Origin: Magnetococcales bacterium
Lineage (GTDB): Bacteria; Pseudomonadota; Magnetococcia; Magnetococcales; UBA8363
Reading direction: 5' to 3'
Assembly (NCBI GenBank): GCA_015228815.1
Contig: JADGCV010000039.1
Span: 1-34,807 of the forward strand
Length of the DNA stretch: 34,807 nucleotides
Part shown: positions 3,441 through 34,807 of the stretch, one piece after another
How positions within the stretch are numbered: the first letter of the stretch is position 1
Layout: each line of letters begins with the position of its first letter
The notes under the pieces: model-generated
Databases searched by the model: none
What the model saw: only the letters and a program-made list of their open reading frames with translations
What the model was told of the DNA's origin: nothing
Made by a program: the position numbers and the translations under genes

Positions 3441-3462
3441 GTTTATGTCCTTTTTTCGGAAA

Positions 3463-10300: not shown

Positions 10301-12094
10301 GATGTCGTCGGCGACGGCATCGACGGTAACATGAAGGGTGCCGCTGACCGAGGCCGTGTCACCATTGCTTCCTTCGGTGGCGATGGCGGTGATGGACAGA
10401 TCGAAATCGGTATCCGAATCGGCTGCCGGGGTCAAGGTCAGTCCGTCAAGATCCTGGGCGCTCAGGGTCCAGGTGCCGTCTCCGTTGTCGATGCCGGCCG
10501 AAAGGTTGGCTCCATTCGGAATTCCGGACAGGGTGATGGCCAGGGTCTCCGAGCCATCCAGATCACCCAGGGTTGCCGAAAGATCAAGGGCAATGGGCTG
10601 GTCCTCATTGCCGGTGGCGGGATTCAGGACCAGGACCGGGGCATCGGCATCGGCTGCGACCTGGACCTGGAGTGTCCCCAGGGTTGTGCTGGTATCGGCG
10701 CCATCGGTACTGGTGGCGGTGACGGTCAGAGTGAAATCGGCATCCGAACCCGGAGCCGGGGTCAGGGTGAGATGTTCGAGGTCGGAGACACTCAAGGACC
10801 AGGATCCATCACCATTGTCGATGCCGGCGGAAAGTTCGACACCGTCGGGAATGCCCGAAATGGTGATGGCAAGAGATTCGGAACCGTCGGTATCGGTCAA
10901 TGCGGCACTGAGATCCAGGGCGATGGGTTGATCCTCGGTGCCCGAGGCATCATTCAGGACCAGGGTCGGGGCGTCGGCATCGGGATCGACCGAGACAAGG
11001 ATGGTTCCGGAGGTTGTCGCCGTATCGCTGCCATCGGTGCTGGTGGCGGTGACGTTCAAGGTGAAATCGACGTCGGAATCATCGGGCGGGGTGATGGTGA
11101 GCCCCTCCAATTGATCGGGCGTCAGGCTCCAGGAACCATTGCCCAGATCAGTCCCGGCGGAAAGAACCGCGCCGTCGGGAATTCCCGAAACAGTGATGGC
11201 GAGGGATTCGGAACCGTCGGCATCCACAATCGCCGCAGAAAGATCAAGCGCTATGGCCTGGTCTTCGATGCCCGCAGAATCCGCAGTTTGCAACGTCGGC
11301 GCCACCAGAGGTTCCACGGGGGGTTCCGGGGTCGCTTCCTGAACCACGGGGGCTTCCTGAACCACGGGGATTTCTTCTACCGGGGCAGCAATGATGGGCT
11401 GGGGTGGTTCATTTCCATCCAATCCTGGTTTCGCTTCTTCCACCGGAGCGGCTTCGGTTGCCGCAGGTTGGCTTTCCGTCTCGCCGGTGATGACCGGGGG
11501 TGCCTCGGGGGTGGGGGCGCTTGCGGTATTCGGAAGTCCACTCCCTTGAAAATCGATTGGATCTCCTTCCGGTTCCGTTGATTCGGATTGAGTCGCCGTT
11601 TCCGTTTCTTCCGGTTGCCGGGGTTCGGGATCTCCAGGTGCGGTTGTGGCCTCTCCAGTGATCGTGGTCACTGGAGTCCCTTCCCCTTCGAACAGCGGTG
11701 CTTCCCCGGTTCGGGCATCCGCAGCGGATCCTGCTTCCGGATTTGGAACCGGTTGCGCACTTTCGGCGTTGGTTTCAAGACGTTCCTCGGAAGGACCCGA
11801 TGTGCGCGTCACCAGGTTTTCGCGGAGACGTTCATCGCCCATGGCGCCCAGATGAACCGAGATGGCATCGGTGAAATCTTCATCCACTGTTCCCTGATTT
11901 CCGCCCGCCTGGGACATGGAGGCATTGTTGGGTTCCCTTCCCGGGCTTTGCGAGGACAGGTTTCCCTCTTCGGCATTCAGATCCTGACTCTGGACATTCT
12001 GGAGGACGGTCATGTCGTCCAGATTTTGCCGATCTTCGTTGAAATCAGGAGTCTCCAGGTTTTCCTGGCCCGTGGTGATTGGTTCCTCAGCCAT
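7349..12094 (-). CDS. Giant RTX adhesin with cadherin-like repeats and integrin-like VWA domain
   Basis: This is a predicted surface or secreted calcium-binding adhesin of 1,581 residues. The start at 12094 (MAEEPITT) has GGAG 7 nt upstream; an in-frame TTG at 12130 is a poorer choice. No signal peptide is visible, as expected for type I secretion. Order of domains: an acidic Glu/Pro/Thr-rich head (1-262); six tandem repeats (about 263-973) sharing a D(x)DGSESL core and a GIPDGA turn; a cadherin-like domain with VNVLANDT-type sequence (about 977-1060); a VWA domain (about 1130-1330) with MIDAS DLTGS at 1137-1141 and TDA near 1273; a linker; and RTX nonapeptides GGxGxDxx (about 1430-1505). The tail ends in FTDIDQIRW, plausible for an uncleaved type I secretion signal. 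The protein is very acidic and almost cysteine-free. No type I transporter genes lie in the window. Family call is strong; the binding target is unknown. Confidence 0.88.
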   Translation of the reverse strand: MAEEPITTGQENLETPDFNEDRQNLDDMTVLQNVQSQDLNAEEGNLSSQSPGREPNNASMSQAGGNQGTVDEDFTDAISVHLGAMGDERLRENLVTRTSGPSEERLETNAESAQPVPNPEAGSAADARTGEAPLFEGEGTPVTTITGEATTAPGDPEPRQPEETETATQSESTEPEGDPIDFQGSGLPNTASAPTPEAPPVITGETESQPAATEAAPVEEAKPGLDGNEPPQPIIAAPVEEIPVVQEAPVVQEATPEPPVEPLVAPTLQTADSAGIEDQAIALDLSAAIVDADGSESLAITVSGIPDGAVLSAGTDLGNGSWSLTPDQLEGLTITPPDDSDVDFTLNVTATSTDGSDTATTSGTILVSVDPDADAPTLVLNDASGTEDQPIALDLSAALTDTDGSESLAITISGIPDGVELSAGIDNGDGSWSLSVSDLEHLTLTPAPGSDADFTLTVTATSTDGADTSTTLGTLQVQVAADADAPVLVLNPATGNEDQPIALDLSATLGDLDGSETLAITLSGIPNGANLSAGIDNGDGTWTLSAQDLDGLTLTPAADSDTDFDLSITAIATEGSNGDTASVSGTLHVTVDAVADDIDLTAANASGSEDTAIPLDIQIGLNDIDGSESLSGNIIITGVPDGASLNIGVAGAGNTWIISQEHLSVTATNATGDPISWSIPGLTVTPPANDATDFSLGIQVGTIDGNQDSRLFTDALDVTVNSSVDEAVLTLDDATGSEDTPIALDIDLALNDTDGSESLSGNIILTQIPDGAILNIGSAGAEAGTWEIPQSALAATATNAAGTPIAWSIPGLTITPPADSNADFSVGIRVSTTENGELVTTEGSFQVNVTGVADAPELTASIGLASIVVEADAQGADQEVYRAPLTIESALTDLDGSESLSLTLQGLPAEAELSAGTRNADGSWSLTTADLNGLTVTVPKDTGDPTFDLTVTATTTENDGDSESVQAAVAVDFTDDFDPNAQDDTGSTQSGTPVTINVLANDTSPTGEALSIQNVSGAQHGTVAIVNGQVVYTPEEGFTGVENLTYTVTDPNGNTDTGSVVISVGTTINVQEVLEGGNTWPGATSTADKTTISTSDGVADTVNADLYPQGGTITLTITAQAPAGSLPDALDVYLLQDLTGSYKDDIATIRGTQGSSNDASDLGILDNLVQGVNDLVPDTKFGLGYFKDPVKGADSSGQDGLIHDLNLQADSTGSYLDGTTSGHGYDSYSANGGQGGNPNEDQITALNDVAIAAINNQYGFRAGVPKVVIVATDAPSDTTAAEIAQCAANLEAANIIPIFLVADGWADLDELGFYDDIVSQLGRGATVELSLTSDNLVEAVRAGIQEAVGNIQLNIEGDEYGYAQVVDHSATGDGLHTWTVELDAALNESHAADSLQLTVTDADGNALGTTTTVNVTPEIDFSGTNYDDRLTGHEGDNEIEGGSGDDVLSGLGGDDLLNAGAGDDTVSGGEGNDTLDGGAGNDVMDGGEGNDLFIFGTGSGHDTVSGGLEEGWIDSIELQGFQDGPSGNLADIGDWTLDTDAAYTIDMDNHTIDFTQDDASGTIQLFDGSQIDFTDIDQIRW
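7590..7805 (-). repeat. RTX nonapeptide repeat block
   Basis: This in-frame stretch of the adhesin gene encodes a run of GGxGxDxLx nonapeptides (for example GGSGDDVLS, GAGDDTVSG, GGAGNDVMD, GGEGNDLFI). In known RTX proteins such repeats form a calcium-binding parallel beta-roll that folds only after export into a calcium-rich exterior. Confidence 0.85.
9160..11310 (-). repeat. Six tandem cadherin-like repeats within the RTX adhesin gene
   Basis: Six consecutive units of roughly 100-130 codons occupy this stretch. Units 1-3 are the shorter form, each with DxDGSESL, GIPDG and a LxxLTLTP or similar strand. Units 4 and 5 are longer and share an inserted ATNAxGxPIxWSIPGLT segment. Unit 6 is the most diverged. 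The repeats are similar enough at DNA level that slipped-strand or recombinational changes in copy number are plausible. Confidence 0.8.
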
Positions 12095-12350
12095 CGATTT
12101 TCTCCATGACACAGTGGGCGGGTCGTGCAAACTTCCGTTCGGATTCCGGTAAACTTCAATCGGACCCTACTGTCACTATACATCCGCATAAACGAGAATT
12201 CATCATAAAAGAGCGATCACCCCGAAAATGAAGGATTCGTGGATATGTCCAATAAATAAGGGAAATATATATGAGTTGTTATCGAAGGTAAGGGCGCGCC
12301 TTCTATTTTTCAGGACAGGCGACCGACAAAGTTGGAATGATGTGTCAATC
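12095..12350. other. Intergenic region upstream of the RTX adhesin gene
   Basis: This non-coding stretch lies between the adhesin start and the suc operon terminator. On the minus strand a TATAGT hexamer (plus coordinates 12175-12180), preceded by TG, could be the -10 of the adhesin promoter, leaving an untranslated leader of roughly 75 nt. The matching -35 is poor, so the promoter is only a suggestion. No other structure was recognised. Confidence 0.3.
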
Positions 12351-20482: not shown

Positions 20483-21222
20483 TGGCGCGATGGTTCCAAA
20501 CAATGGCCCGGCGCGATCGCCCCTGGGAAGATGTACCCCCGGTCATCGGATGGCTGGCGTTACTGTTTCTTGCGTTGCAATGTCTTTTCCATGCCCAACT
20601 TGTCCCCCCTTCCCCTCGGGCGGTTTCGCTTCCGGCGCCTCTGGCCCCGGGATTGTTTCGTCTGTCGGCGTTGGGCGATCCGATGGCCATGAACCGCATG
20701 GCAATGCTGTGGCTTCAGGGGTTCGACTATCAATCGGGGATCAGCCTTTCCTTCAAATCGCTCGATCCCGTTCGTCTGCGGGACTGGTTGTCCGCGATTC
20801 TCGACCTCGATCCACGGGGGCAATACCCACTGATGGCGGCCAGTCGTATCTATGCCGACATTCCGCGCGAGGAATCCCAGAGAATTCTGTCCCGGTTCGT
20901 TTTCGAACGGTTCTTCGAGGATCCCGACGTTCGCTGGCCCTGGTTGGGACATGTCGCCATCATCGCCAAACACCGCCTTCACGATCTTCCGCTTGCCTTG
21001 AGTTATGCTCGGGCGATTCGTTTGCATGCTTCCCCAACTTCCGTTCCTTCCTGGGCGCGGCAGATGGAAATGACCATCCTCGAGGACATGGGGGAACTCG
21101 ATCAGGCGCGCCTGTTCATCGGTGGCCTTCTGTCCAGCGGCCAGGTCACCGACCCCAGGGAAATCCATTTCCTCGATGACCGTTTGCGGGCGCTTGAACT
21201 TCGGACAGGTGTTTCGAAGTGA
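20482..21222 (+). CDS. Membrane-anchored helical (TPR-like) protein, unknown function
   Basis: I do not recognise a named family. The 246-residue product has one transmembrane segment (about 22-40, VIGWLALLFLALQCLFH) after a short basic N-terminus, then a long soluble domain predicted to lie in the periplasm. The soluble part is helical, with TPR-like spacing (for example DWLSAILDLDPRGQYPLMAASRIYAD is split across 97-123, and a second pair near 165-215 around LPLALSYARAIR and LDQARLFIGG). The start overlaps the ABC permease stop by one base, strongly suggesting one operon and a joint role. It may be an accessory subunit of that transporter. It has no catalytic motif that I can see. Confidence 0.75.
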   Translation: MARWFQTMARRDRPWEDVPPVIGWLALLFLALQCLFHAQLVPPSPRAVSLPAPLAPGLFRLSALGDPMAMNRMAMLWLQGFDYQSGISLSFKSLDPVRLRDWLSAILDLDPRGQYPLMAASRIYADIPREESQRILSRFVFERFFEDPDVRWPWLGHVAIIAKHRLHDLPLALSYARAIRLHASPTSVPSWARQMEMTILEDMGELDQARLFIGGLLSSGQVTDPREIHFLDDRLRALELRTGVSK

Positions 21223-21250
21223 GGACGGTCAGGTGATTGTCAAAGAGTGC

Positions 21251-21279
21251 TTTCCATTGGTTTGCTTCAGGGTTATGAT
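21251..21279 (+). promoter_or_regulatory. Candidate sigma-70 promoter of the chaperone genes
   Basis: TTTCCA (21251-21256) and TATGAT (21274-21279) are separated by exactly 17 nt, with 4/6 and 5/6 matches to consensus. Transcription would start near 21286, about 37 nt before the TPR gene start. If real, the chaperone genes can be expressed apart from the ABC permease pair. The call rests only on sequence match. Confidence 0.4.
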
Positions 21280-21322
21280 GGCCTCCGCTCTAGTGGGGAA
21301 AACTTTGTTCCAGGTGGTGGCG

Positions 21323-23791
21323 ATGAAGAAAAAAAAGGGGGGCGGGAAGGGAAAAAGTCCGACTGCGAACCTGTCCAACGAGGCCATGGGGCTGACGCAT
21401 TTGCACGCGCTTCAGTTCAAGCAGGCGCTCGAACGCTTCAAACTGGCCCTCAAGGAGGATCCCCGCTCCGAACGACTCAAGGAACTGCTGGTCGAGGCCT
21501 ATGTCGGCAGGGCCAGGGAGTTGGCCGGGAAGGGGATGGCCAGGGAGGCGGCCATCATGCTGGAAAAATCGTCTTCCCTGACGGGAAGACCCGCCGACCC
21601 GATGATGTTGTTTTCCCTGTTTCTCAATGGGGGAGACATGGAGCGGGCGGTTTCCTCCCTGGTGGGGCTGACGGAAAAACCCGAGATGAGGGCGCTTTTT
21701 TGTTCCGGGCCCTTTGCGGAAGGGTTGGCGGTTCTGTCCCTTGTCGGTCCGGGGCGGGGGGTCGCGGTACTCATGGAACCGGTGGTTTCCTCGTTTGTCG
21801 ATCATCGGGATACCGCGCTTGAATTTCTTGATGCCTGGGACCGGGGTCTGGATGACCAGGCGATTGCTTTGTTGAAAAAATTGCCGATCGGGTCGCCGTT
21901 CAAAAGTTTTCGCGTGTTCATGCATGCCTTGATTCTTTGCCGCGCTCAGCCAGGGACGGCGCTTGAATGGTTGGGCAGAATTCACGAACGGGAATTGTTT
22001 CATCCCCTGGCCCAGGGGATCCGGGAGATCCTGTCGGAACGGGGGGGTACGCTTAAATCCATGATTTCCTGGAGTCCACCCGTGCGGGAACTGGCCTTTC
22101 GTCTCCTGGAGGTCAAACCCGATGCGGTCCGGATTCTCGGGCGACTTCAATCCCTGGCAGAGAAACCCGATCAATGTGCCAAGGCATTGTTGGACCCCTC
22201 CCTGGAAGCGTATTTTCCGGCGACATCACTCAGGAATCTTTGTCATTCGCTGCTTCCATGCGATCCTGACCTGGCGAGGCCGTTCCAACAACGATTTGGT
22301 TCGCTTCCCCCCTGGGAAAATCATCGAATCCGGGCACTGGCATGGGAACGTCGCGGACAATGGCAAGAGGCCCGCCACGAGTGGGTCCGTGCCATCGAAT
22401 TCATTGATGACCCCTTGATGAAGGCGCAAATCTATCGCCATCTGGTGGAGATTCTGGAAGAAGAGGTTCCAAGGCAGGTCTCCTGGGGGTTCAAGGGATA
22501 CCGAAAAGAAACGGAATCTTTTAAAGTTCAGTATCTGGAAGCCAGTCTAAAGCACGATCCCGATGATCGGGAGACCCACCTTGCCCTGATCCGTCTTCAT
22601 GGCCAGGAACGCAATGCCAAGGAGGTCCGGGCCGCCGTGGACCGGGCGATCGCCCTGTTTCCGGAAGACCGGGAAATCCTCGAAGCGGCGATGGATGCCG
22701 CTTTCGCGGCCAAAACGTTCAAGAAGGCGGTGTCCTTTGCGCAAAAAATTCTTTCGTTCAATTCCATCCATGTTCGCGCCAGGGACGTTCTGATCGAGGC
22801 CCATTTGTCGCACGCCCGGAAGAAGGTTTTCGAAAAACGGTTCGATCTGGCGGAGAAGGAATTGTTGCTGGCCGAATCCATCGAACGGGAACATTCCCGT
22901 TCCGGAAGGGTTCAAGCCTGTCAGGCCATCCTGGCCATGTTTCGCGGGGAAGAGCGGCTGGCCGGGGAATTGCTGCGCAGTCTTCGAAATCAAAAAGGAT
23001 TTTCCCTGCCCCGGGAACTGATGATTCAGGTGGAGGCGCATCGACTCAAGGCGCCCCAGGAAATGGTGCGAAAAATGGGGCATTCGTTGCGGCAACGGAT
23101 TGAGGATACCGTTCCCGAAAAGGGAGGCCTGCTGCAATCGATACAGGATTTGGAGCAGTACCAACGCGAGAAAATCCCCCTGGTCAAACAGTGGTTGCAA
23201 GCGTTGTCGCCATGGTTGGTCCGGGCGGCGGAGGTAAACCTTGCCTTGGAGGAACGGCGCCTGGTCTGCAATTTTCTTCTGGAAAATCAACTGTTCGAAC
23301 CTTTGGAGTCGTTTGCCCGTGTCGGCCTGAACCAATGGGAACAGGATCCTTCCTTTCTTTTCTTCCACATCTTCTCCCAGGCCAAGGGAGATTATCGACA
23401 TGTCGCGAACAAGAATCGGACCGTCCTTGATGAAATCGTCCGGAAGGTGAAGGAATCGCATCTGGACACCCGCACCATGAAAAATATTCATGAATTTATT
23501 TCTCCATTACCTTTATTCACTCATTCTTCGAGTCCTTTCGCGGATGAGTTTGATGAGGATGATGAGGCGGTGTCCGACGACGATCAGGACCAGATCGACA
23601 GTGTCCTTTCCATGTTTGAATTGGTCATCCGGCAGAAAATCGAAGAGGATGCCGCCGGTCGTCGGAAACTTGGAGATAAAAAATATGCCGCGAAGTTGGC
23701 ACGGGATATTGCGAGGAGCGTGGGTGCGGGACCGGAGTTTATCAAAGACGTTCGTGAAATGATCGAAGATATTCTCCTTTCGCGGGAATAA
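21323..23791 (+). CDS. Large TPR-repeat protein of a chaperone gene cluster
   Basis: The 822-residue cytoplasmic protein begins MKKKKGGGKGK at ATG 21323, with AGGTGG 5 nt upstream. An in-frame extension to 21122 overlaps the previous gene and is unlikely. No signal peptide or membrane span is visible. TPR-type helix pairs are clear at the N-terminus (LHALQFKQALERFKLALKED, about 27-46) and again near 420-520 (for example AVDRAIALFPEDREILEAAM). Much of the middle is helical and TPR/HEAT-like but not regular. An acidic Asp/Glu tract (about 735-755, EFDEDDEAVSDDDQDQ) precedes a conserved-looking helical end. It lies just upstream of J-domain-like, GrpE-like and Hsp70 genes. TPR proteins often act as Hsp70 co-chaperones, so I infer a client- or chaperone-binding scaffold. 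Not assigned to a named family. Confidence 0.8.
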   Translation: MKKKKGGGKGKSPTANLSNEAMGLTHLHALQFKQALERFKLALKEDPRSERLKELLVEAYVGRARELAGKGMAREAAIMLEKSSSLTGRPADPMMLFSLFLNGGDMERAVSSLVGLTEKPEMRALFCSGPFAEGLAVLSLVGPGRGVAVLMEPVVSSFVDHRDTALEFLDAWDRGLDDQAIALLKKLPIGSPFKSFRVFMHALILCRAQPGTALEWLGRIHERELFHPLAQGIREILSERGGTLKSMISWSPPVRELAFRLLEVKPDAVRILGRLQSLAEKPDQCAKALLDPSLEAYFPATSLRNLCHSLLPCDPDLARPFQQRFGSLPPWENHRIRALAWERRGQWQEARHEWVRAIEFIDDPLMKAQIYRHLVEILEEEVPRQVSWGFKGYRKETESFKVQYLEASLKHDPDDRETHLALIRLHGQERNAKEVRAAVDRAIALFPEDREILEAAMDAAFAAKTFKKAVSFAQKILSFNSIHVRARDVLIEAHLSHARKKVFEKRFDLAEKELLLAESIEREHSRSGRVQACQAILAMFRGEERLAGELLRSLRNQKGFSLPRELMIQVEAHRLKAPQEMVRKMGHSLRQRIEDTVPEKGGLLQSIQDLEQYQREKIPLVKQWLQALSPWLVRAAEVNLALEERRLVCNFLLENQLFEPLESFARVGLNQWEQDPSFLFFHIFSQAKGDYRHVANKNRTVLDEIVRKVKESHLDTRTMKNIHEFISPLPLFTHSSSPFADEFDEDDEAVSDDDQDQIDSVLSMFELVIRQKIEEDAAGRRKLGDKKYAAKLARDIARSVGAGPEFIKDVREMIEDILLSRE

Positions 23792-23803
23792 TGCTGCTCC
23801 CTT

Positions 23804-23830
23804 GCCCTGTCCGAGTCGGGGCGTTTGTTT
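23804..23830 (+). terminator. Weak terminator-like hairpin between TPR and J-like genes
   Basis: A six-pair stem (23804-23809 with 23817-23822, one T-G pair, 7-nt loop) is followed by GTTTGTTT. It lies between the TPR gene stop and the J-like start. It could act as a partial terminator lowering expression of the downstream chaperone genes, or be chance. Confidence 0.3.
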
Positions 23831-23844
23831 CACTTTGAGGATGA

Positions 23845-24177
23845 ATGGTGACCATGGATCCCTATTTTGTTCTGGGTGTGACGCGAGAGGTGGATGATGA
23901 CGAGGTCATTCGCCGGGCCTATCTGGAGAGAATTCGACAATGGCCCCCGGAGCGCCATCCCGAACGGTTTCGCAAGGTTTCCGAGGCCTACACCCTGATT
24001 CAGACAAGAAAGAAACGGTTGAATTTTAATTTATTTCACCATGTCGAGACGCCTGATCTTTCGGAACTGGAATCACGGGTGATGTCGTCGGAGGTGAAAG
24101 GAAGGCCATCCCGGGAGGAACTGGTGGGATGGATGAGGGCTTTGTTGGCTTCGTATCATTTTGGCGACAGGAGATAG
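23845..24177 (+). CDS. J-domain-like protein with degenerate HPD motif
   Basis: This 110-residue protein reads as a J-domain from its start: MDPYFVLGVTREVDDDEVIRRAYLERIRQW aligns (in pieces) with the YEILGV...EIRKAYR helices I-II of DnaJ, and FRKVSEAYTLI matches helix III. The HPD loop that stimulates Hsp70 ATPase is replaced: where DnaJ has YHPDR this protein has WPPER. The rest (residues 60-110) is a short C-terminal helix region without zinc fingers. Start ATG 23845 has GAGG 4 nt upstream; GTG 23848 with 7-nt spacing is equally possible. It is followed 3 nt later by the GrpE-like gene. Whether it can still activate its Hsp70 cannot be read; it may be a J-like regulator that binds without stimulating. 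Confidence 0.75.
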   Translation: MVTMDPYFVLGVTREVDDDEVIRRAYLERIRQWPPERHPERFRKVSEAYTLIQTRKKRLNFNLFHHVETPDLSELESRVMSSEVKGRPSREELVGWMRALLASYHFGDRR

Positions 24178-24180
24178 GAT

Positions 24181-24858
24181 GTGGATGAAGGAATCAGGGA
24201 ATCCCTGGTGACCCAGTTTCGGGCGTTCCTTGAGGAATCCCAGGAGCGGAAGGAGGGGATTCCGGTGGGGGCGCGGGCAGGGGATGTGGCGGACGATCTG
24301 ATGCATTTGTATCAGGCGTTGACGGGATTGAAGAATGAAGTTCGTATCGAATCACGCCAGTTCAAGGAGGCGTTGGATCGTTTTCGTGCATTGTTCGCGG
24401 TGGTGGAAGAACAGAAGGTGTTGTTGACCCGGGAAACGGAGCGCCACAGGGAAGTCTGGGAGGATCGGGCGGAACGGTCGAAGGGGACTTTCTTGTTGGA
24501 GTTGGTCGGATTGCGGGACCGTCTGGAGCGCAGTGTGATGGCGATGGAGGCGCATCGTCCGTCGGTCGTTGCGGCCATGTCCCGAAGCGAGACTGCCTGG
24601 AGGGCGGGAATGGTGGAGGGGTTGCGCATGGTGCTGCGAAGGTTGGAACAGACGCTCCTTGGCCAGGGGATTTCGATGGTGGAAACCCTGGGCAGACCGT
24701 TGGACCCTGAAACGATGCGGGTGATCGGCGTGGAACATCATGCCGACCGGGACTCCGATGTTGTCGTGGCGGAAGATTTGAAGGGATACGTGTGGAACGG
24801 GCAGGTGTTGCGTCCCGCGGAAGTGCGGATCAATAAAAAAGAGGGGAACAAGGAATGA
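24181..24858 (+). CDS. GrpE-like nucleotide exchange factor
   Basis: GrpE proteins release ADP from Hsp70. The 225-residue product has a helical, coiled-coil N-terminal half and a C-terminal segment matching the GrpE beta-wing: LGRPLDPETMRVIGVEHHAD, then VVAEDLKGYVWNGQVLRPAEV, comparable to the GrpE GYxxxGRVLRPA signature. Its start is GTG 24181, with AGGAG 7 nt upstream; an ATG at 24179 is in another frame. The N-terminal half is more diverged than in the housekeeping GrpE, and a loop with EAHRPSVVAAM is unusual. It is 3 nt after the J-like gene and overlaps the Hsp70 start by 4 nt (ATGA). It is likely a dedicated exchange factor for the adjacent Hsp70 rather than the cell's main GrpE. Confidence 0.85.
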   Translation: MDEGIRESLVTQFRAFLEESQERKEGIPVGARAGDVADDLMHLYQALTGLKNEVRIESRQFKEALDRFRALFAVVEEQKVLLTRETERHREVWEDRAERSKGTFLLELVGLRDRLERSVMAMEAHRPSVVAAMSRSETAWRAGMVEGLRMVLRRLEQTLLGQGISMVETLGRPLDPETMRVIGVEHHADRDSDVVVAEDLKGYVWNGQVLRPAEVRINKKEGNKE

Positions 24859-26618
24859 GTGAGCCCATCATCGGCATCGATCTGGGAACGACCAATTCGG
24901 AGGTGGCCATTTTCGAGAATGGCCGGGCGCGTCTGATTCGCGATGCCGCGGGACGGGCCATCATCCCTTCAGTGGTCGGAATCGATGGCCAGGGAAAGCT
25001 GTTGGTGGGCGAGACGGCCCTGAATCAATACGTTGGCCGACCGGAGGCGACCATCCGCTCCATCAAACGAAAGATGGGTGGCACCGAAAAGGTGTCCCTG
25101 GGGGGGACCGAATATTCCCCGCAGGAGATTTCGGCCTTTATTCTCAGACATCTGAAGGAAATGGCCCAGGCCGATCTGAAACGGGAGGTGACCCGGGCGG
25201 TGATCACGGTTCCGGCCTATTTTTCCGATGCCCAGCGTCAGGCGACCCGCGAAGCGGGGGAGATCGCCGGTCTGGAAGTGGTGCGCATGATCAATGAACC
25301 CACCGCGGCGGCACTGGCCTACGAGGCAGGAAACCGTGGACGGCGTCATATTTTGGTATTTGACCTCGGGGGCGGTACGTTCGATGTTTCCATTGTTCGC
25401 ATGGAGGATGAGATCATCGAGGTGGTTTCCAGTACGGGAAACAATCATCTGGGGGGCGATGATTTCGATGAACGGATCGGGGAACATATTCTCAAACATC
25501 TGGCCGGGGAACGGCAGTTCGAGGTTGTCCCGGGGACACCGGTCCATGCCCGTATCGTGAGAAGGGCCGAGTCCTCCAAAAGGTTTCTTTCGGATCACCC
25601 CTTTGCCCGGGTCGAAGAGGAGTTCCTGGGGACCCGGGAGGGCGTGCCCCTGCATCTGGACATGGAATTGCCACGTTCGACCTATGAGGAGATGATCCTG
25701 CCGCATGTCGATGAAACTCTGGAACTGGTCCATCGGGCCCTTGACGATGCCCATCTGGACACCGGGGATATTCAGGAGGTCCTCCTGGTGGGCGGGGCGA
25801 CCCGGACACCGGTGATCCGGGAACGGTTGGAAGAGGTTTTTGGTTATGTTCCGCGGGGGGAGGTGGATCCGGATGTTTGCGTGGCGTTGGGGGCGGCCAT
25901 TCAGGGGGCGATCATCGCCGGGGTGAAGGGGACGGCGGTATTGGTGGATGTCACTCCGTATAGTTTTGGCACGAGTGCCCTGGGGGAATTGGATGGAACA
26001 TGGAGTTCGTCTCTTTATGTTCCTTTGATTCATCGCAATACCCCCATACCGACGAGCAAGAGCGAAGTTTTTTTTACCGTCCACGACAATCAGGAAAAGG
26101 TGGATGTCCGCATTTACCAGGGAGAGCATCGGGATGCTTCCTTCAATATCGAGATTGGCCGGTTCATGATCGAAGGGTTGGGGCCGTCCAGGGAGGGGAG
26201 TCCGATCGTCCTTAAACTGGATCTTGACGTGAACGGGGTCTTGCAGGTGACCGCCACGGAGAAGACGACGGGACTCAATAAAAAGATCACGATCGACAAT
26301 GCCTTGACGCGAAGGGGAGAAAACAGCCTGGAACATGCCCGGGACAGGGTATCGGCCTTGTTGGAGGGCGATGGAGAAGCGACCCGTTTTTCGGGAGGCG
26401 GTTCCGAGGGATCCGGGGAGGGGCATGCCGAAACGGTGACGTCTCGGGCGGTGATCGAGAAGGCCCGCGGTCTGCTGGACAAGGCTGCCGACGAGGATCG
26501 GGACGATATGGTCAATCTGATCGAATCGATCGAAGAGGCGTTGCAACGGAAGGATTTCGAAGAAGCCCAGTCTCTGAGGGAACGGTTGGCCGATCTGTTG
26601 TTCTATCTGGAAACATGA
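24855..26618 (+). CDS. Hsp70-family chaperone with shortened C-terminal lid (DnaK-like)
   Basis: The 587-residue protein is a clear Hsp70. The ATPase domain shows IGIDLGTTNSEVAIF (phosphate 1), INEPTAAALAYEAG, VFDLGGGTFDVSIV (phosphate 2) and LLVGGATRTPVIRERL (adenosine). The substrate-binding beta-domain follows (DVTPYSFGTSALGELDG, then QGEHRDASFNIEIGRF and LDLDVNGVLQVTATEKTTG). The helical lid is short and the EEVD-like DnaK tail is absent, so the protein is about 50 residues shorter than typical DnaK; a Gly/Ser linker lies near residue 515. In the substrate domain GTSALG replaces the more usual GIETxGG. It overlaps the GrpE-like stop by ATGA, with GAGGGG upstream. It is a paralogue dedicated to this locus rather than the heat-shock DnaK, by inference. 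Confidence 0.93.
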   Translation: MSEPIIGIDLGTTNSEVAIFENGRARLIRDAAGRAIIPSVVGIDGQGKLLVGETALNQYVGRPEATIRSIKRKMGGTEKVSLGGTEYSPQEISAFILRHLKEMAQADLKREVTRAVITVPAYFSDAQRQATREAGEIAGLEVVRMINEPTAAALAYEAGNRGRRHILVFDLGGGTFDVSIVRMEDEIIEVVSSTGNNHLGGDDFDERIGEHILKHLAGERQFEVVPGTPVHARIVRRAESSKRFLSDHPFARVEEEFLGTREGVPLHLDMELPRSTYEEMILPHVDETLELVHRALDDAHLDTGDIQEVLLVGGATRTPVIRERLEEVFGYVPRGEVDPDVCVALGAAIQGAIIAGVKGTAVLVDVTPYSFGTSALGELDGTWSSSLYVPLIHRNTPIPTSKSEVFFTVHDNQEKVDVRIYQGEHRDASFNIEIGRFMIEGLGPSREGSPIVLKLDLDVNGVLQVTATEKTTGLNKKITIDNALTRRGENSLEHARDRVSALLEGDGEATRFSGGGSEGSGEGHAETVTSRAVIEKARGLLDKAADEDRDDMVNLIESIEEALQRKDFEEAQSLRERLADLLFYLET

Positions 26619-26975: not shown

Positions 26976-27174
26976 AAAATACCGATCTTTTATCGTCGAT
27001 TCGCTCCTTTCTTGTTGCCCGTGGTCCATGAAACGGGTGGAACCTGTTCCTGGAGAGGCAACTGTGATAGGTTCATGGGATCCTGTGCGGGAGAATTTGT
27101 CCGCGAACCTGAATGAACGATGGTTCGATTCATGATGTCATCCCGCAAAACCCGGTTTGAAAGGAGCCTGTGTC

Positions 27175-27978
27175 ATGCCTCAGGTGCGCGTGGAGCGAAC
27201 GAATGCGGCGGGATTTACCCTGATCGAGATCGCCATCGTCGTCGTGATCATTGGATTGTTGTTGGGCGGGGTCCTCAAGGGACAGGAGATGATCCGCAAT
27301 GCCCGGGCGCACAATGTGGCGGACCAGGGCAATGCCGTCAAGGCGGCCATTCTCGGCTTTTCCGATCGCTATCGGGCGCTTCCGGGTGATTATGCCGCAG
27401 CCTTGAACAACATTCCGGGCCTTTCCGGGGTTGAACAGAACGGTGATGGCAACAGTCGCATCGGATTCGACGACCGTGCCGTCCAGGGAACCCCGGATGA
27501 GCCGAACCGGTTGCGTGAACTGGGGTTGACCTGGCTTCATCTGGCCCGCTCCGGATTCATTTCTGGCAATTATCTGGGAACCGCTTTTGGCGCGACCGAT
27601 GAAGCCAACTGGGCCTGCCCCACCGATACCTGTCTGACCAATGCCTTCAACGGCGCCATGATCATCGCCTATGACAATGAACAAACGGGGCTGAGCGACC
27701 TTGCCAATCAATCCCGGTCCAATCAATTGTGGTCGGGTCGTGGTATTCCAATTGAAATCATCTCCGAACTGGACCGGAAGGTCGATGACGGCCATCCTGG
27801 GACGGGAAGCTTTCGTGTTGGGGACGGCTTTGTCGGCGGGACAACCGGTGCCGTCGGGCACCAGTGTGTTGACGATGGTGCTGAAACCCCGGCGGCTCCG
27901 AACATGACAAGTACCTGGCCGCAACGGTGGACCATCGTTACCCAGGTGTCCGATTGTGGTGGGGTCTATCAATTCTGA
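27175..27978 (+). CDS. Type II secretion/type IV pilus-like pseudopilin
   Basis: The 267-residue product is a prepilin. After the leader MPQVRVERTNAAG comes FTLIEIAIVVVIIGLLLGGV, with the prepilin peptidase site G13|F14 and the conserved Glu at mature position 5. The globular part (about 40-267) is long for a minor pilin and has Cys residues in NWACPTDTC, GHQC and SDCGG that could form disulfides, as in many pseudopilins. ATG 27175 has AAGGAG 8 nt upstream. It is separated by about 200 nt from the zinc-ribbon gene and followed by a strong hairpin before the ABC ATPase. It is probably a subunit of the machine encoded from 28857 onward. Which pilus type is not decidable. Confidence 0.9.
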   Translation: MPQVRVERTNAAGFTLIEIAIVVVIIGLLLGGVLKGQEMIRNARAHNVADQGNAVKAAILGFSDRYRALPGDYAAALNNIPGLSGVEQNGDGNSRIGFDDRAVQGTPDEPNRLRELGLTWLHLARSGFISGNYLGTAFGATDEANWACPTDTCLTNAFNGAMIIAYDNEQTGLSDLANQSRSNQLWSGRGIPIEIISELDRKVDDGHPGTGSFRVGDGFVGGTTGAVGHQCVDDGAETPAAPNMTSTWPQRWTIVTQVSDCGGVYQF

Positions 27979-28856: not shown

Positions 28857-29936
28857 TTATTTTGCATCGTGGTTGTCCTGTTGGACGAATTGGGGTTTTG
28901 GGGAGACGGTCCGGGGTGGGACGATTGGCAGCGGAGGAATTGGGAATCGCTCGTCCATCGTCGGCGGTTCCCGTGGCGTTGGCCCGGGGATGGCGACGAA
29001 GGAGGTCGTGGGGCGGGCCGTGACCGGGTATCGCGTGGCCAGATGAAAACCGGCCCATCCGGCGACCGGGATGGCCGTCAGGTAAAGAAGGGTGGCAAGA
29101 GCGGTGGTCCGTCGTGGGGTTGCGGTGGCGATGAAGCTGCTTTCGCGGGCCGCCTGTCGAACATGCTTCGGAGTGACACGGTCTTTTCTTTCGATGTAGG
29201 CCCCGAGAAGGGCCTTGTCGGCCAACAGGTTGATGCGTCGCGTCAATCCTTCCGACAGTTTCCAGATGCGGCGGCTGACTGCCGGCGGGAACAGGGTCGG
29301 TCCCCGATAACCGGCGGACCGCAGACGTAGAAGAAGATAGGCTTCGCAATCACTGCGACTGAAACGGGGGAGGTAGAACTGGTAGGAGATGCGTTCCTTC
29401 AATTGGCGGATCGAGGGGTGGGCCAGATTGACATCCAGTTCCGGCTGGCCGAACAATACCAGTTGCAACAGTTTGGATCGGGTGGTCTCCAGGTTGCTGA
29501 GGAGACGAATTTCTTCGAGGGTCGCCAGGGGCATTCCTTGTGCCTCCTCCACCAGCACGACAATCTGGCGTCCGGCGGCATGTTTTTGCAGCAGGCATTG
29601 TTGCAGGGCCTGGTGAACCTGGAAACGGTCATTCCGTTCGGCGATGGTCAGATGGAGTTCGAAGGCGATGGCATGAAATATATTGTCCGGGGTCAGGCCA
29701 GGATTGGCGATGAACACGGTCTCGACCTTCCCGGCCAACCGCTGTTCCAGCATGCGACACAGCATGGTCTTGCCGCTGCCCACCTCGCCGACAACCTTGA
29801 TGATTCCTTCACCCTGAAGAACGGCATATTCCAGCGCTTCGAGAATGGCACCACGTTTGCCGCCGGGAAAAAAGACCCGGGTATCGGGAGTGTTGCGGAA
29901 CGGAGCGTCATCGAGGCCAAAATTTTCATGATACAT
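28857..29936 (-). CDS. ExeA/MshM-family AAA ATPase with C-terminal membrane anchor
   Basis: This 359-residue protein belongs to the ExeA/GspA/MshM group that couples type II secretion or MSHA-type pilus assembly to the cell wall. It starts MYHENFGLDDAPFRNTPDTR at 29936; in-frame sequence upstream to 30011 is possible but looks less conserved. Walker A is GEVGSGKT (50-57), the Walker B region is VVLVEEAQ (about 126-133, VEEAQ instead of the usual IDEAQ), and the winged-helix-like LTRRINLLADKALLGAY block is family-typical. A membrane span near 283-303 (ALATLLYLTAIPVAGWAGF) precedes a Pro/Thr-rich tail that would be periplasmic but lacks a visible peptidoglycan-binding domain. It is divergent from the GspE fusion gene. 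Confidence 0.88.
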   Translation of the reverse strand: MYHENFGLDDAPFRNTPDTRVFFPGGKRGAILEALEYAVLQGEGIIKVVGEVGSGKTMLCRMLEQRLAGKVETVFIANPGLTPDNIFHAIAFELHLTIAERNDRFQVHQALQQCLLQKHAAGRQIVVLVEEAQGMPLATLEEIRLLSNLETTRSKLLQLVLFGQPELDVNLAHPSIRQLKERISYQFYLPRFSRSDCEAYLLLRLRSAGYRGPTLFPPAVSRRIWKLSEGLTRRINLLADKALLGAYIERKDRVTPKHVRQAARESSFIATATPRRTTALATLLYLTAIPVAGWAGFHLATRYPVTARPTTSFVAIPGPTPREPPTMDERFPIPPLPIVPPRTVSPKPQFVQQDNHDAK

Positions 29937-30244
29937 GGCATGAAACCCTGCCTTACACAGAATAAAAACCTTAACGTAACATGAAAATCGGTTCACCGGC
30001 AGGGATTCCAAAGGACTTCGTGCGGGGATGCGATCAATCGTGTGCCATGATCAACGATTTATTTCCTGATTTGATATGATATGGAGATGTTCTCGATTGC
30101 GCCATCGATGAATGATGGTTCATCGATGACTTGGGAAAAAATATGGGAAATCATCGATGATGAGATTGTTTTGATTGATTCGAATCGAAAAATTTGTCAT
30201 GTTCGCATGTCCAGATCGACTCACCCACCGTCGAGCATCCTTCC
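29937..30244. promoter_or_regulatory. Divergent region with three CATCGATGA sites
   Basis: This 308-nt region separates the divergent ExeA-like and GspE-fusion genes. It contains three copies of CATCGATGA at 30103-30111, 30121-30129 and 30152-30160. The second and third extend to the perfect 10-nt palindrome TCATCGATGA. They sit between the genes, 85-140 nt before the GspE-fusion start, as operators would. A TATGAT at 30075-30080 could be a -10 but lacks a good -35. Regulatory meaning is inferred. Confidence 0.45.
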
Positions 30245-32992
30245 ATGTCCTTGATGAACGCGCTGTTTGAAAATCCCTTGGCCTTTCTTCCAGAGCGAAG
30301 GGCCGAATCCAGACTGATGGTGGTTTCCCGGGAGCGGTTGGTGCTGTACCACTGGACCGACGGCACGTTTACGCGGCAGGGGGTGTTTTCCCAGGATGCC
30401 GGGGGACAGGACTGTTTCCGGACCTCCCTGAAGGGCGGAGCCGATGAACGACCGGTGTTTGTCCTGGTGGATGTCATCGAGGAGGAGATGTGGGGGGAGG
30501 TGATTCCCTGGATGCGTGGCAGGGATCGTCAGGCGGTGCTCGATCGGCGATTGGAACGATTGTTTTCCGCGACGCCGTATCGCCGGGCGGTCTCCCAGGG
30601 GCGGGGACGGGAGGGGGAACGCATTCTGTATTCGGGGCTGGTCAATCCGGGATTGATCGCTCCATGGATGGCGATCCTGGATGAACTGGATGTGCCGGTT
30701 GCGGGATTGTGGTCGCAGCAATTGTTGATGCGTTTGTTGATGCGCCGGATCGATCGCGGTTCGGAGCGGGCATTGCTGGCGGTGTTGCATTCGTTTGGTT
30801 TGCGCCAGACCTATTTTGTCCGAGGACGAACCCAGATCAGCCGCATGACGCCGATGCGTGTCGCGATGGGGGAGGCCGGGGCGGAATCGATCTTTGGGGA
30901 GTTGCTTCGGACGCAGGGGTATCTGTCCAGTTTGAAGGTGTTGGAACGGGGACAATCCTTCGATCTGTTCTTCCTGGCCCCCCCGGCATTGTCTCGCGAT
31001 ATTTCCGCGCTTGCCGGGACATTGGACGGGGCGCGGTTCGTGGCGGTGGATGTGGACGCCCTGACCCGGAACCTGGGAATCACCGGGGGGGGGGACAACG
31101 GCGGGCTGGAACTCCTGACGGCCCAGCTTTTGTTGAAAAGACCACCGCGAAGCCATTATGGTTTTGCTGGAAAATCGGGTCGGTACACGTCCTGGATGCG
31201 CCATTTGATCCAGGTCTGGCAGCCTGCTCCGGCAATCCGCACGGATGCGGCAACGCCGGGAGGGGCCGAAAAAATGGCGCCGCGGCGCCGTTTGGGGGAT
31301 CTGCTGCTCGAACGGGGATTGATTTCCCAGGATCATCTCCAGACTGCCCTGGCGGAGCAGAAACGTTCGTCGGAATCGTTGGGACGGATCGTGGTCCGTC
31401 TGGGTCTGGTGGCCGAGGTGGCTCTGAGGAGCGTTCTGGCCGAGGCGCTCAATCATGAGTCGATCGACCTGGTCGAAGTCTCGCCCCATCCCGAGGCGTT
31501 GGCGATGGTTCCCAAACGCTTCGCCAAGCGCCATGGCATCCTGCCGATCCTGTATGACCGCGACAGGAAACAGATGGTCGTGGCCATGGCCAATCCGACC
31601 AATGTTTCGGTCCTTGACCTGTTGCAGGCCCGCTTGGAACCGGGGGCGACGGTTTTGCCACGCCTGGCGGGAGAGGCGGAGATCGCCGGGGCCATCGATC
31701 AGCATTATGGCCATGAACTGTCGGTGGAGGGGATTCTGCGGGAATTGGAAACGGGGGAGGTGGATCTGGAGTCGCTGGTCGATCCGATGGCGGAGTTCAG
31801 CCATCCCATGGTTCGCCTTGTCAATGCCCTGTTGACCGATGCGGTCAAACGCGAGGCCTCCGACATCCATATCGGTCCGACCTCGGGATTCGTCCGGGTC
31901 CGTTATCGCATTGACGGGGTATTGCGTCATATCCACAGTTTTCACCGTCACCTGCTTCCCAGCCTGATGGTACGTCTCAAGGTGATGGGGGGGATGAACA
32001 TTGCCGAAACCAGGATTCCCCAGGATGGCCATGTCAGCCTTGAGATGGCGGGGCAGAAGGTGAGTTTTCGCATTTCCATCCAGCCGACGATCAACGGAGA
32101 AAATGCCGTATTCCGGATCCTCGATTTGCGACGGGAGGTCCGTTCCCTGGACGAACTGGGGGTGACACCCCATAATCTTGGGGAACTTCATCGCGCCCTG
32201 CGGCGCAACATGGGATTGATCCTGGTCACCGGACCCACCGGCAGTGGCAAGACCACGACCCTTTATTCGATGATCAACCATCTCAATAATGTCGGCATCA
32301 ATGTCATGACCCTGGAGGACCCGGTGGAATATCCCATGTCCACCGTCTTGCAAACCAATGTCAACAAGGCCGTTGGGCTTGATTATGCTGCCGGGATCCG
32401 TTCTCTTCTCTGGCAGGATCCCGACGTGATCCTGGTCGGGGAGATTCATGACAGCGAAACCGCCAACATGGCCCTTCAGGCGGCCATGACCGGACATCAG
32501 GTTCTGACGACGCTTCATGCCAATTCCACTCTTGGGTCCTTGCCCCGTTTGATGAACCTGGGGACGCACAAGGATTTTCTCATCGGCAACATCAACTGCA
32601 TCGTTGCCCAACGCCTGGTGCGCCGTTTGTGCCTTGCCTGCCGCAAACCCGTGCTTGCAACCGACAGGGAACGCCGTATCCTGAAATTTTCCGCGACGGA
32701 GGAAGGGGCAATCTTTCAGGCGGTCGGTTGTCCGGAATGTCATGGTTCGGGGTATCGTGGCCGGTTGCCGGTCATGGAGGTGTTACGGGTGGATGACACT
32801 TTCGATGAACTGATCTATACGGGGGCGCCGCGCCGGGAATTCATGGCCCACGGACGCGCCCTCGGATTGCGCACCATGGCGATGGATGGGATCGATCGGG
32901 TCAAGAACGGCATGACCACTTTGGAGGAACTGGCCCGGTCGGTCGATCTGATGGAATTGGGCGATTTCGGCCTGGAGTCCAATCATGCCTGA
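30245..32992 (+). CDS. GspE/PilB-type secretion ATPase with N-terminal domain fusion
   Basis: The 915-residue protein is a type II secretion/type IV pilus assembly ATPase carrying about 340 extra N-terminal residues. From about residue 345 an MshEN/GspE N-terminal domain is clear (LGDLLLERGLISQDHLQTAL), followed by the ATPase with Walker A GPTGSGKT at 663-670, an Asp box (TLEDPVEYP), Walker B DPDVILVGE (about 725) and the His box TGHQVLTTLHAN. Two CxxC pairs (CLAC, CPEC) make the tetracysteine zinc site. The N-terminal part is not GspE: it includes VDVIEEEMWGEVIPWMRGRD and LVNPGLIAPWMAILDELDVP and may be an actin-like module of the PilM/GspL type, which is only a suggestion. Start ATG 30245 lacks a strong ribosome-binding site; a TTG at 30194 is possible. 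The gspF-like gene overlaps its end by 8 nt. Confidence 0.9.
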   Translation: MSLMNALFENPLAFLPERRAESRLMVVSRERLVLYHWTDGTFTRQGVFSQDAGGQDCFRTSLKGGADERPVFVLVDVIEEEMWGEVIPWMRGRDRQAVLDRRLERLFSATPYRRAVSQGRGREGERILYSGLVNPGLIAPWMAILDELDVPVAGLWSQQLLMRLLMRRIDRGSERALLAVLHSFGLRQTYFVRGRTQISRMTPMRVAMGEAGAESIFGELLRTQGYLSSLKVLERGQSFDLFFLAPPALSRDISALAGTLDGARFVAVDVDALTRNLGITGGGDNGGLELLTAQLLLKRPPRSHYGFAGKSGRYTSWMRHLIQVWQPAPAIRTDAATPGGAEKMAPRRRLGDLLLERGLISQDHLQTALAEQKRSSESLGRIVVRLGLVAEVALRSVLAEALNHESIDLVEVSPHPEALAMVPKRFAKRHGILPILYDRDRKQMVVAMANPTNVSVLDLLQARLEPGATVLPRLAGEAEIAGAIDQHYGHELSVEGILRELETGEVDLESLVDPMAEFSHPMVRLVNALLTDAVKREASDIHIGPTSGFVRVRYRIDGVLRHIHSFHRHLLPSLMVRLKVMGGMNIAETRIPQDGHVSLEMAGQKVSFRISIQPTINGENAVFRILDLRREVRSLDELGVTPHNLGELHRALRRNMGLILVTGPTGSGKTTTLYSMINHLNNVGINVMTLEDPVEYPMSTVLQTNVNKAVGLDYAAGIRSLLWQDPDVILVGEIHDSETANMALQAAMTGHQVLTTLHANSTLGSLPRLMNLGTHKDFLIGNINCIVAQRLVRRLCLACRKPVLATDRERRILKFSATEEGAIFQAVGCPECHGSGYRGRLPVMEVLRVDDTFDELIYTGAPRREFMAHGRALGLRTMAMDGIDRVKNGMTTLEELARSVDLMELGDFGLESNHA

Positions 32993-34190
32993 ATTTTCCT
33001 ATCGCGCAGCCGATCGTCGTGGACGGATTTCTCGTGGGACGATCCAGGCATTGAATGCCAAGGACCTGGAATTCAAACTTTCACGCATGGGCATGTGGTT
33101 GATCGAACTGGACGCCACGGCACTGGATGAACCGCGGGCGCGCCGCCGTGTGGTCGGGAGGAAACTCCTGATTCTTTTTTGCATTCACATGGAGCAGATG
33201 CTCAAGGCGGGCGCGTCGATTCCCGATGCCCTGGACGAGATTCGCCGTTCCATGTCCCATCCCAGGTTTTGCGAGGTCGTGGCCGCCGTCACCGAGGACA
33301 TCCAGGGGGGAAAGGGGCTCTCGGAAGCGATGGCCTCCTATCCGGAAATCTTTCCTCCTGTTTTTTCGGGCCTGATCCGGGTGGGAGAACGGACGGGACA
33401 ATTGACGGCAATCTTCAAGTCCCTGGCCGACAACATCAAGTGGGAGGACGAGTTGGCGACCCGGGCGGCACAGGCGGTCCGTTATCCGGTGATTGTCGCT
33501 CTGGTGGTGATGGCATTATTTTTCTTTCTGATGATTTTTCTCGCGCCGCGCCTGATGGAGTTCATTCCCAAGATGGGGGGCGAGATTCCATTGTATACGT
33601 TGCTTCTGTTTTCCCTGAGCCGGTTTGTGGTTCAGTGGTGGTGGTTGATGCTTGCCGCCCCCATGGCCTTGGTGTTGGGTTTCGGGTTCTTGCGACGGGT
33701 CAATCCCAAATTCGACCTGTGGTTGGATGGTGTGTTGTTGCGTGTCTGGTTTTTCGGCCCATTGGTGCGCAAGTTCTTCCTGGTCCGGTTCGCCACCAAT
33801 TTTTCCCTCATGTACCGTTCGGGGGTTGCGGTACTCGATGCCCTGGCGATCAATGAAAACCTGACCACGAACAAGATTCTTTCCCGATCGATTCGCCGCA
33901 TTCGCGACCGGGTAGCGGAGGGGCAGACGGTCAGTGCCGCCTTGCGTGAAGAATCGCTGTTGCCGCCGCCGTTGCCGCGTTTGGTCGAGGCGGGAGAGGC
34001 GAGTGGACAATTGGACGGGGCCATGGAAAATGTCAGTTATTTTCTCGATCGGGAGGTGCGTGAAAGCATCGACGGCTTGCAATCCATGGTGGAGCCTCTT
34101 TTAACCTTGGTGATGGGGTTTTTATTGGGTTGGGTGATCCTCTCGGTTTTTGGTCCCATATATGAGACGATAAGTCATGTCCGGTTCTGA
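32985..34190 (+). CDS. GspF/PilC-family inner-membrane platform protein
   Basis: This 401-residue polytopic protein is the inner-membrane platform of type II secretion and type IV pilus machines. After a short cytoplasmic N-terminus (MPEFSYRAADRRGRI) there are two homologous GspF domains. The first (about 60-185) has FCIHMEQMLKAGASIPDALD and LIRVGERTGQL; the second (about 265-390) has RFATNFSLMYRSGVAVLDAL and LVEAGEASGQL. Membrane spans are near 168-190, 218-240 and 372-392. Start ATG 32985 overlaps the GspE-fusion stop by 8 nt, so the two are translationally coupled. It would bind the ATPase at its cytoplasmic face. Confidence 0.95.
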   Translation: MPEFSYRAADRRGRISRGTIQALNAKDLEFKLSRMGMWLIELDATALDEPRARRRVVGRKLLILFCIHMEQMLKAGASIPDALDEIRRSMSHPRFCEVVAAVTEDIQGGKGLSEAMASYPEIFPPVFSGLIRVGERTGQLTAIFKSLADNIKWEDELATRAAQAVRYPVIVALVVMALFFFLMIFLAPRLMEFIPKMGGEIPLYTLLLFSLSRFVVQWWWLMLAAPMALVLGFGFLRRVNPKFDLWLDGVLLRVWFFGPLVRKFFLVRFATNFSLMYRSGVAVLDALAINENLTTNKILSRSIRRIRDRVAEGQTVSAALREESLLPPPLPRLVEAGEASGQLDGAMENVSYFLDREVRESIDGLQSMVEPLLTLVMGFLLGWVILSVFGPIYETISHVRF

Positions 34191-34211: not shown

Positions 34212-34807
34212 ATGCAACGGCGTTGGACTTGTGACTGCGATGGCAGTGCCTTGGTGGCGTTTCTGGCGCTTCTTGTAGCGGCTCTGGGGGCGGTCGTGCT
34301 GCCTTTGGTCGATGCGGATCCGGGGCGGCTTGTGGCGAGGGAGACGACGTTGCGACGGATGGCCGATGCTGCGTTGGCGTTGCGGGCCTTTTCTGCCAGG
34401 GAACGGCGTCTTCCGTGTCCCGATGTGGATGAACCTCCGGATGGTTTGGCTGATGATCCCTGTCATGGGACGGCGGCGCGGAGCGAGGGGGTGGTGCCGT
34501 GGCGAACCTTGGGGTTGATGCCGTTGCGGGATGAATGGGGTGCGGGTTTGCGTTATGTCATTGTGGTTTCGGGGAGCGCGGGCATTGAGGAGGTGGGGTT
34601 GAGACCGATGGCGGGAGTGCGATGGGATGGCGTGGTGGTGGCCATGGTCCGGACCCGGGATAAAAGCCGCTGGCTTCCCGTGATTGGCGCGGACCACGTA
34701 CTTCCGCTCAGGACTATTGAAAGAAAAAATGGGTCTAATGGTATGGTCCGCCCCGTTCCCAACGGCCTCGAAATGGGCCAAGATGGAGTTTCAGCTAACC
34801 ATCAAAC
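34212..34807 (+). CDS. Pilin-like/minor pseudopilin protein (partial)
   Basis: The frame opens at ATG 34212 (GGGAGG 8 nt upstream) and runs off the right edge, giving about 198 residues. A short basic, Cys-containing N-terminus is followed by a hydrophobic segment (about 12-31, SALVAFLALLVAALGAVVLP). The soluble part carries RRLPCPDVDEPPDGLADD and VVPWRTLGLMPLRDEWGAGLRY, a pattern common in minor pilins and pseudopilins with NGRLPCP and WGNxxRY motifs. The canonical G|FTLIE prepilin site is not evident, so it may be processed differently or simply membrane-anchored. It follows the platform gene by 21 nt, so it is the third gene of this operon. The end is outside the window. Confidence 0.7.
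   Translation, partial: MQRRWTCDCDGSALVAFLALLVAALGAVVLPLVDADPGRLVARETTLRRMADAALALRAFSARERRLPCPDVDEPPDGLADDPCHGTAARSEGVVPWRTLGLMPLRDEWGAGLRYVIVVSGSAGIEEVGLRPMAGVRWDGVVVAMVRTRDKSRWLPVIGADHVLPLRTIERKNGSNGMVRPVPNGLEMGQDGVSANHQ

Follow-up and report, generated by a model that had tools for sequence, protein, structure and literature searches.

A predicted GspL/PilM-like actin-fold domain fused to an MSHA-type extension ATPase in Magnetococcales

The fused gene and its surroundings

The window, i.e., the whole stretch of DNA analysed here (34,807 nucleotides), comes from a genome of the Magnetococcales, kin of the magnet-sensing bacteria. It contains an unbroken reading frame of 915 aa on the plus strand (30245, ATG, to 32992), with a TTG at 30194 as a possible alternative start. 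The encoded protein consists of an N-terminal domain (residues 1 to about 306), a linker of about 40 residues and, starting at residue 349, a complete motor of the MshE/GspE type. These parts and the neighbouring genes are the following:

30245..31159, plus strand: predicted actin-like (PilM/GspL-type) domain, residues 1-305 (AlphaFold2 model, Foldseek, dN/dS, standalone paralogues)
31160..31288, plus strand: variable linker, residues 306-348 (pLDDT <50 from 307; dN/dS 0.55-0.95; start codon not conserved)
31289..31444, plus strand: MshE-type c-di-GMP-binding motif, first part of MshEN/N1, residues 349-400 (NF053729; alignment with unfused MshE)
31463..31723, plus strand: MshEN as drawn by Pfam, residues 407-493 (PF05157, E 1.1e-13)
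31799..32938, plus strand: T2SSE motor, N2 and ATPase core, residues 519-898 (PF00437, E 1e-116)
32985..34190, plus strand: platform protein (gspF/mshG), overlapping the motor gene at its end (PF00482, E 6.9e-49)
34212..34805, plus strand: pseudopilin-like protein, running off the window (BLAST matches to pseudopilin-like proteins from related loci)
28860..29936, minus strand: AAA ATPase of the ExeA/MshM type, encoded divergently to the motor gene (PF13401, E 4.5e-25)
27157..27978, plus strand: pilin-like protein with an N-methylation signal (PF07963, above cut-off)

With its T2SSE core and an MshEN N1 carrying the c-di-GMP motif, the protein is an extension ATPase of the MshE/GspE/PilB type. 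Residues 349-400 score 59.3 bits with NCBIfam NF053729 (cut-off 38), and the Walker A (GPTGSGKTT), Walker B glutamate (GEIHD), His box (TTLHAN) and tetracysteine (CxxC...CxxC) motifs are all in place. The motor motifs were also compared across 23 fused and 16 unfused proteins. The Walker B loop (window 32432-32452) reads GE[IV]HD in place of GEIRD in ten fused motors, the arginine being found in all 16 unfused MshE; the window's own branch of the motor tree also has ten members. The replacement of arginine by histidine is a derived change and may affect motor catalysis.

In the region ahead of the motor, residues 1-343 have no match in Pfam even at E<=1 and none in NCBIfam. This region is 74, 64 and 65% identical to its homologues of the same genus, which are likewise fused, and its codon-position GC tracks that of the motor. 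Values of dN/dS (rough, as dS is near saturation) are 0.18-0.19 in the N-terminal domain, as against 0.07-0.11 in the motor and 0.55-0.95 in the linker. A chance open frame is thus discarded by the fused homologues, the purifying selection and the codon-position GC. The initial annotation had pointed to some 340 extra residues before the motor, and these are indeed present as residues 1-348 of one continuous frame, in a fusion that is conserved, the c-di-GMP domain starting at 349.

The mandatory set of the MSH system is mshA, mshE, mshG, mshL and mshM (Denise et al., PMC6668835); E, G/F, M/ExeA and pilins are present in the window, a secretin is not. In the sister loci (system B, described below, and the outgroups) MshL-type secretins were detected at 236.9-252.5 bits against a cut-off of 250.2. 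The ExeA/MshM-type neighbour reappears in loci L022, L024, L025, L026, L027 and L030. A TPR, a J-domain, a GrpE-like and a DnaK-like protein are encoded in a row (21122-26618) immediately ahead of the pilin-like genes, and a homologue of the TPR gene also lies near the fused motor of L022. A haemagglutinin-like secreted protein (3-3494, minus strand) and a large acidic repetitive RTX-like protein (7349-12130, minus strand) were recognised by eye from their translations. Two further ATPases of the same genome were seen, an extension-type one of 766 aa on contig 21 with an N-terminal GAF before MshEN/T2SSE (L034:397-2694) and, on contig 3, an 841-aa T2SSE protein followed by its own gspF (L035:172-2694), in which about 440 N-terminal residues are without assignment or MshEN match.

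Fold and conserved residues of the N-terminal domain

An AlphaFold2 model built on a 16-row alignment was confident (pLDDT 84.1, pTM 0.84); it is well ordered over residues 15-306 and disordered from 307 onward. Its best Foldseek matches in the PDB were the PilM proteins from Pseudomonas, Myxococcus and Thermus, with E-values of 3e-10 to 1e-9 (5eoy at 3.4e-10, 2ych at 9.3e-10), followed by BT_3980, FtsA, the cytoplasmic domain of EpsL (1yf5, E 6.7e-8) and GspL as it occurs in the GspE-GspL complex 4pht. All 50 matches listed have an actin-like (actin/ASKHA) or related fold. The TM-scores are moderate (0.42-0.58), the best target-normalised value, 0.58, belonging to EpsL. A second model, of a membrane-anchored standalone relative, again brought PilM, EpsL and the 4pht GspL first; over both models E-values were 1e-9 to 1e-10 for PilM and 1e-6 to 1e-9 for EpsL/GspL. 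The models therefore support an actin-like fold of the PilM/GspL kind, as had been guessed from the letters, and PilM, EpsL and GspL are indeed among the top matches.

The likeness is structural. Neither PF05134 nor PF11104 matched any of 15 domain members in Pfam searches, and hhalign comparisons with purpose-built profiles of GspL and PilM gave non-significant E-values (0.08 and 0.19), so that the domain is not filed in those Pfam families. Run against the sequences of the PDB, a 15-row profile returned chance matches only (ribosomal S2, haemoglobin). The tie to PilM/GspL rests on fold, gene position and topology, with no significant sequence-profile link.

Two blocks that the initial annotation had described as conserved-looking (VIPWMRGRD and LVNPGLIAPWM) are conserved in parts, D76, P88, R95, R102, P135 and W141 being invariant across 32 sequences. 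Invariant columns common to the fused and the membrane-anchored forms number 29, or 13 in a wider set, which indicates that both forms are under common constraints. The PilM-type DxG was found at the two expected loops in just 3 and 2 of 46 sequences, and GG at the adenosine position in none of the 46. With the PilM phosphate and adenosine motifs missing at the expected loops from nearly all of these sequences, nucleotide binding by the domain appears unlikely, and this would put it nearer to GspL than to PilM.

Standalone relatives, locus types and origin of the fusion

Genome contigs were scanned with sequence patterns; since the broad alignments (A1, A2) were too diverse, a narrower one (A4) was used, and it retrieved 13 loci, all in Magnetococcales. 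In the wider survey the domain is present in 31 of 48 Magnetococcia genomes, 27 of which carry fused frames (about 770-1000 aa, motor included). No fused frame was seen in about 350 other sampled Proteobacteria, eight of which have the domain in frames of 432-609 aa only. Within the sample surveyed, the fusion is confined to Magnetococcia.

That relatives might encode the region as a separate protein had been raised beforehand, and they do, as a membrane protein gene directly after gspF/mshG. In other Proteobacteria and in many Magnetococcia this standalone form is made up of the domain, a TM helix and a periplasmic tail, and within MSHA-type operons its gene adjoins gspF/mshG. A second copy of this kind, 547 aa long (domain, TM helix, tail), is encoded on contig 48 of the window's own genome, directly after gspF and with a PilO-like gene next. 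A TM helix at about 305-350 was predicted in every Magnetococcales standalone copy tested and in none of 35 fused sequences (several loci fetched twice). The tail of the modelled standalone relative has an alpha-beta-beta-alpha-beta-beta order, at moderate confidence. Outside Magnetococcia, four of the eight genomes with the domain (loci L105-L108) have the order ExeA/MshM, MshL-type secretin (above the MshL cut-off in L106), TPR/MshN, MshE, MshG and the domain-TM-tail protein, followed, as far as detected, by PilO-like, MshK-like and pseudopilin genes. These post-mshG proteins (L105:6845-8326, L106:7828-9390, L107:7749-9293, L108:6906-8426) have no Pfam or NCBIfam match, and are probably the GspL-like component of MSHA-like operons, a family without a model in either library.

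The loci fall into three ARRANGEMENTS, designated systems A, B and C. System C (L029, L123, L124, L127) has an unfused E, F and the standalone domain protein, and in the window's genome is split between contigs 32 and 48. System B (L025, L027, L114, L116) combines an unfused E, the fused N-E, a single F and the standalone domain protein, arranged in L114 and L116 as tandem E, N-E, F, N-tail. System A comprises the window, L022, L026, L028, L115, L122, L125, L126, L128 and L132, and contains the fused N-E and F, accompanied in some loci by pseudopilin-like genes; a standalone domain protein and a secretin were not found in the stretch examined. The window locus quite probably belongs to a derived branch (motor, platform, pseudopilins) in which the gene of the membrane-anchored GspL-like partner has been lost from the locus. 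The fused form is the sole copy of the domain family in four genomes (G013, G015, G032, G034), each at least 93% complete, where the GspL of the T2SS or other proteins might act as partners; the window's genome also encodes a canonical GspL (contig 37) and PilM (contig 23). In another genome, G040, there seem to be three fused or partly fused copies (contigs 66, 117 and 121), some of them cut at contig ends.

In the motor tree the fused proteins, 23 in all, are monophyletic (bootstrap 99, SH-aLRT 98), and their sister group is made up of six unfused E from system-B genomes; the E of system C and of non-Magnetococcia lie outside both. A domain tree, rebuilt without L108 and L111 (the latter a weak outgroup, too long-branched to place), groups the fused and the system-B standalone domains together (100/99) and apart from system C and the outgroups. 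By itself it does not resolve the fused domains as one clade, and their monophyly is not rejected (p-AU 0.37). The simplest history is that the fusion arose once, in Magnetococcia, after a local duplication. Tree and gene order suggest that, in an MSHA-like E-F-L operon, the E gene was duplicated and one copy took up the cytoplasmic half of the GspL-like gene next to it. A tandem E-F-L duplication in a system-B operon, minus one F and the membrane half of one L, would give E, L(cyto)-E, F, L.

Proposed role and comparison with known systems

In the T2SS, GspL holds the GspE motor ring below the platform protein GspF. The N1 domain of GspE binds the cytoplasmic domain of GspL in a 1:1 complex, the ratio that also holds for PulE and PulL within the assembly platform (PMC6882859). 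PulL has been described as a fusion of PilM and PilN (PMC10191384), and in type IVa pili PilB docks into a socket or ring of PilM (PMC11656802). By likeness of fold and position to GspL/PilM, we propose that the window protein is an MSHA-type extension ATPase carrying its own docking domain of the GspL/PilM kind in cis, probably free of nucleotide, a reading to which we assign a probability of roughly 0.7. The domain would sit on a tether of about 40 residues just ahead of N1, the part that GspL grips in the T2SS. Every subunit of the motor hexamer would then bring its own stator or docking domain, which would fix the ratio at 1:1 and make a recruitment step unnecessary, and c-di-GMP on N1 may regulate extension as in MshE. 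Docking of the motor by the domain, its binding to its own N1, the c-di-GMP regulation and the recruitment role are all suggested here by analogy. In system B the fused motor occurs alongside both a membrane-anchored copy of the domain and an unfused E, and so need not replace either of them. More tentatively, the motors of the window's branch could be committed ones: with a stator domain on every subunit, they would assemble a pilus or pseudopilus without a separate GspL/PilM-like membrane recruiter and could not be exchanged at the base for PilT and the like. If true, the stator ring of such a type 4 filament machine would be part of its motor.

A different role is conceivable, if rather improbable: the fused protein might be a regulatory partner motor, forming mixed hexamers with unfused MshE or alternating with it on a common platform, its extra domain competing or pairing with the membrane-anchored copy. 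The presence of both motors with a single F in the four system-B loci and the sister position of fused and unfused system-B E agree with this, but in the window's branch ten fused proteins have neither an unfused E nor a standalone copy nearby, and four nearly complete genomes hold the domain in fused form only. Somewhat less probable still is that the actin-like domain was repurposed after the fusion, e.g., as a sensor or as a site for a partner other than GspL/PilM, with no docking. The absence of nucleotide-binding motifs and, in the window's branch, of a membrane-partner gene at the locus, together with the derived histidine of the Walker B loop, would suit such a change, while the invariant residues common to fused and anchored forms speak against it.

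A true start near 31275, with the upstream frame separate or spurious, had been raised at the outset, and there is an ATG there with GGGAGG some 10-15 bases upstream. Yet this methionine (Met344) occurs in the window protein only among 23 aligned fused proteins, which refutes such a start, and the upstream region is under purifying selection and folds confidently; it is very improbable. The N-terminal region could also be thought of as degenerate MshEN/GSPII repeats of the sort seen in PilF of Thermus, a protein of almost the same length (913 aa) whose structure (6f8l) heads the PDB sequence matches of the motor part. The PilF match spans residues 343-901 only, though, the model is actin-like and no MshEN appears among the 50 structural matches listed, leaving this the least credible of the alternatives.

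How GspL or PilM conveys or limits the ATP-driven motion of the motor is hard to study, in part owing to the flexible, transient nature of the GspE-GspL contact. The two partners joined in a single chain, naturally and in a conserved form, would be evolutionary evidence that their contact is productive, and the fusion offers a construct with a fixed 1:1 ratio for solving and testing a contact of the GspE-GspL type. The loci also display a probable route to fusion, local duplication followed by capture of the neighbour's cytoplasmic half, with both stages extant in living lineages, and they give the post-mshG membrane family of MSHA-like operons a probable identity as a GspL-like component.

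The modules are known ones and their covalent arrangement appears to be new; no description of an extension ATPase joined to a GspL/PilM domain was found in the open-licence literature, nor such a fusion in the family libraries. The window domain has the same predicted fold as GspL/PulL/EpsL (1yf5, 4pht), and its standalone relatives resemble GspL in their cytoplasmic domain, TM helix, periplasmic tail and a gene beside gspF. Unlike GspL, it is joined to the motor that such a domain normally recruits, is not followed by a TM helix or periplasmic ferredoxin-like domain in the 35 fused sequences, and has no significant match to Pfam T2SSL or to the GspL profile. PilM (5eoy, 2ych) gave the best Foldseek E-values and also lacks a TM helix; the fused domain differs from it in the missing phosphate and adenosine motifs, the covalent link to an extension motor and the absence of profile similarity. 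Thermus thermophilus PilF is also an extension ATPase of similar length with a long N-terminal extension. Its extra region consists of further GSPII repeats, without an actin-like domain, and is not matched by window residues 1-342. With MshE (5htl for MshEN) the window protein shares the c-di-GMP motif above cut-off, MshEN, T2SSE and the full set of motor motifs; known MshE begins with the c-di-GMP domain, whereas here that domain starts at residue 349.
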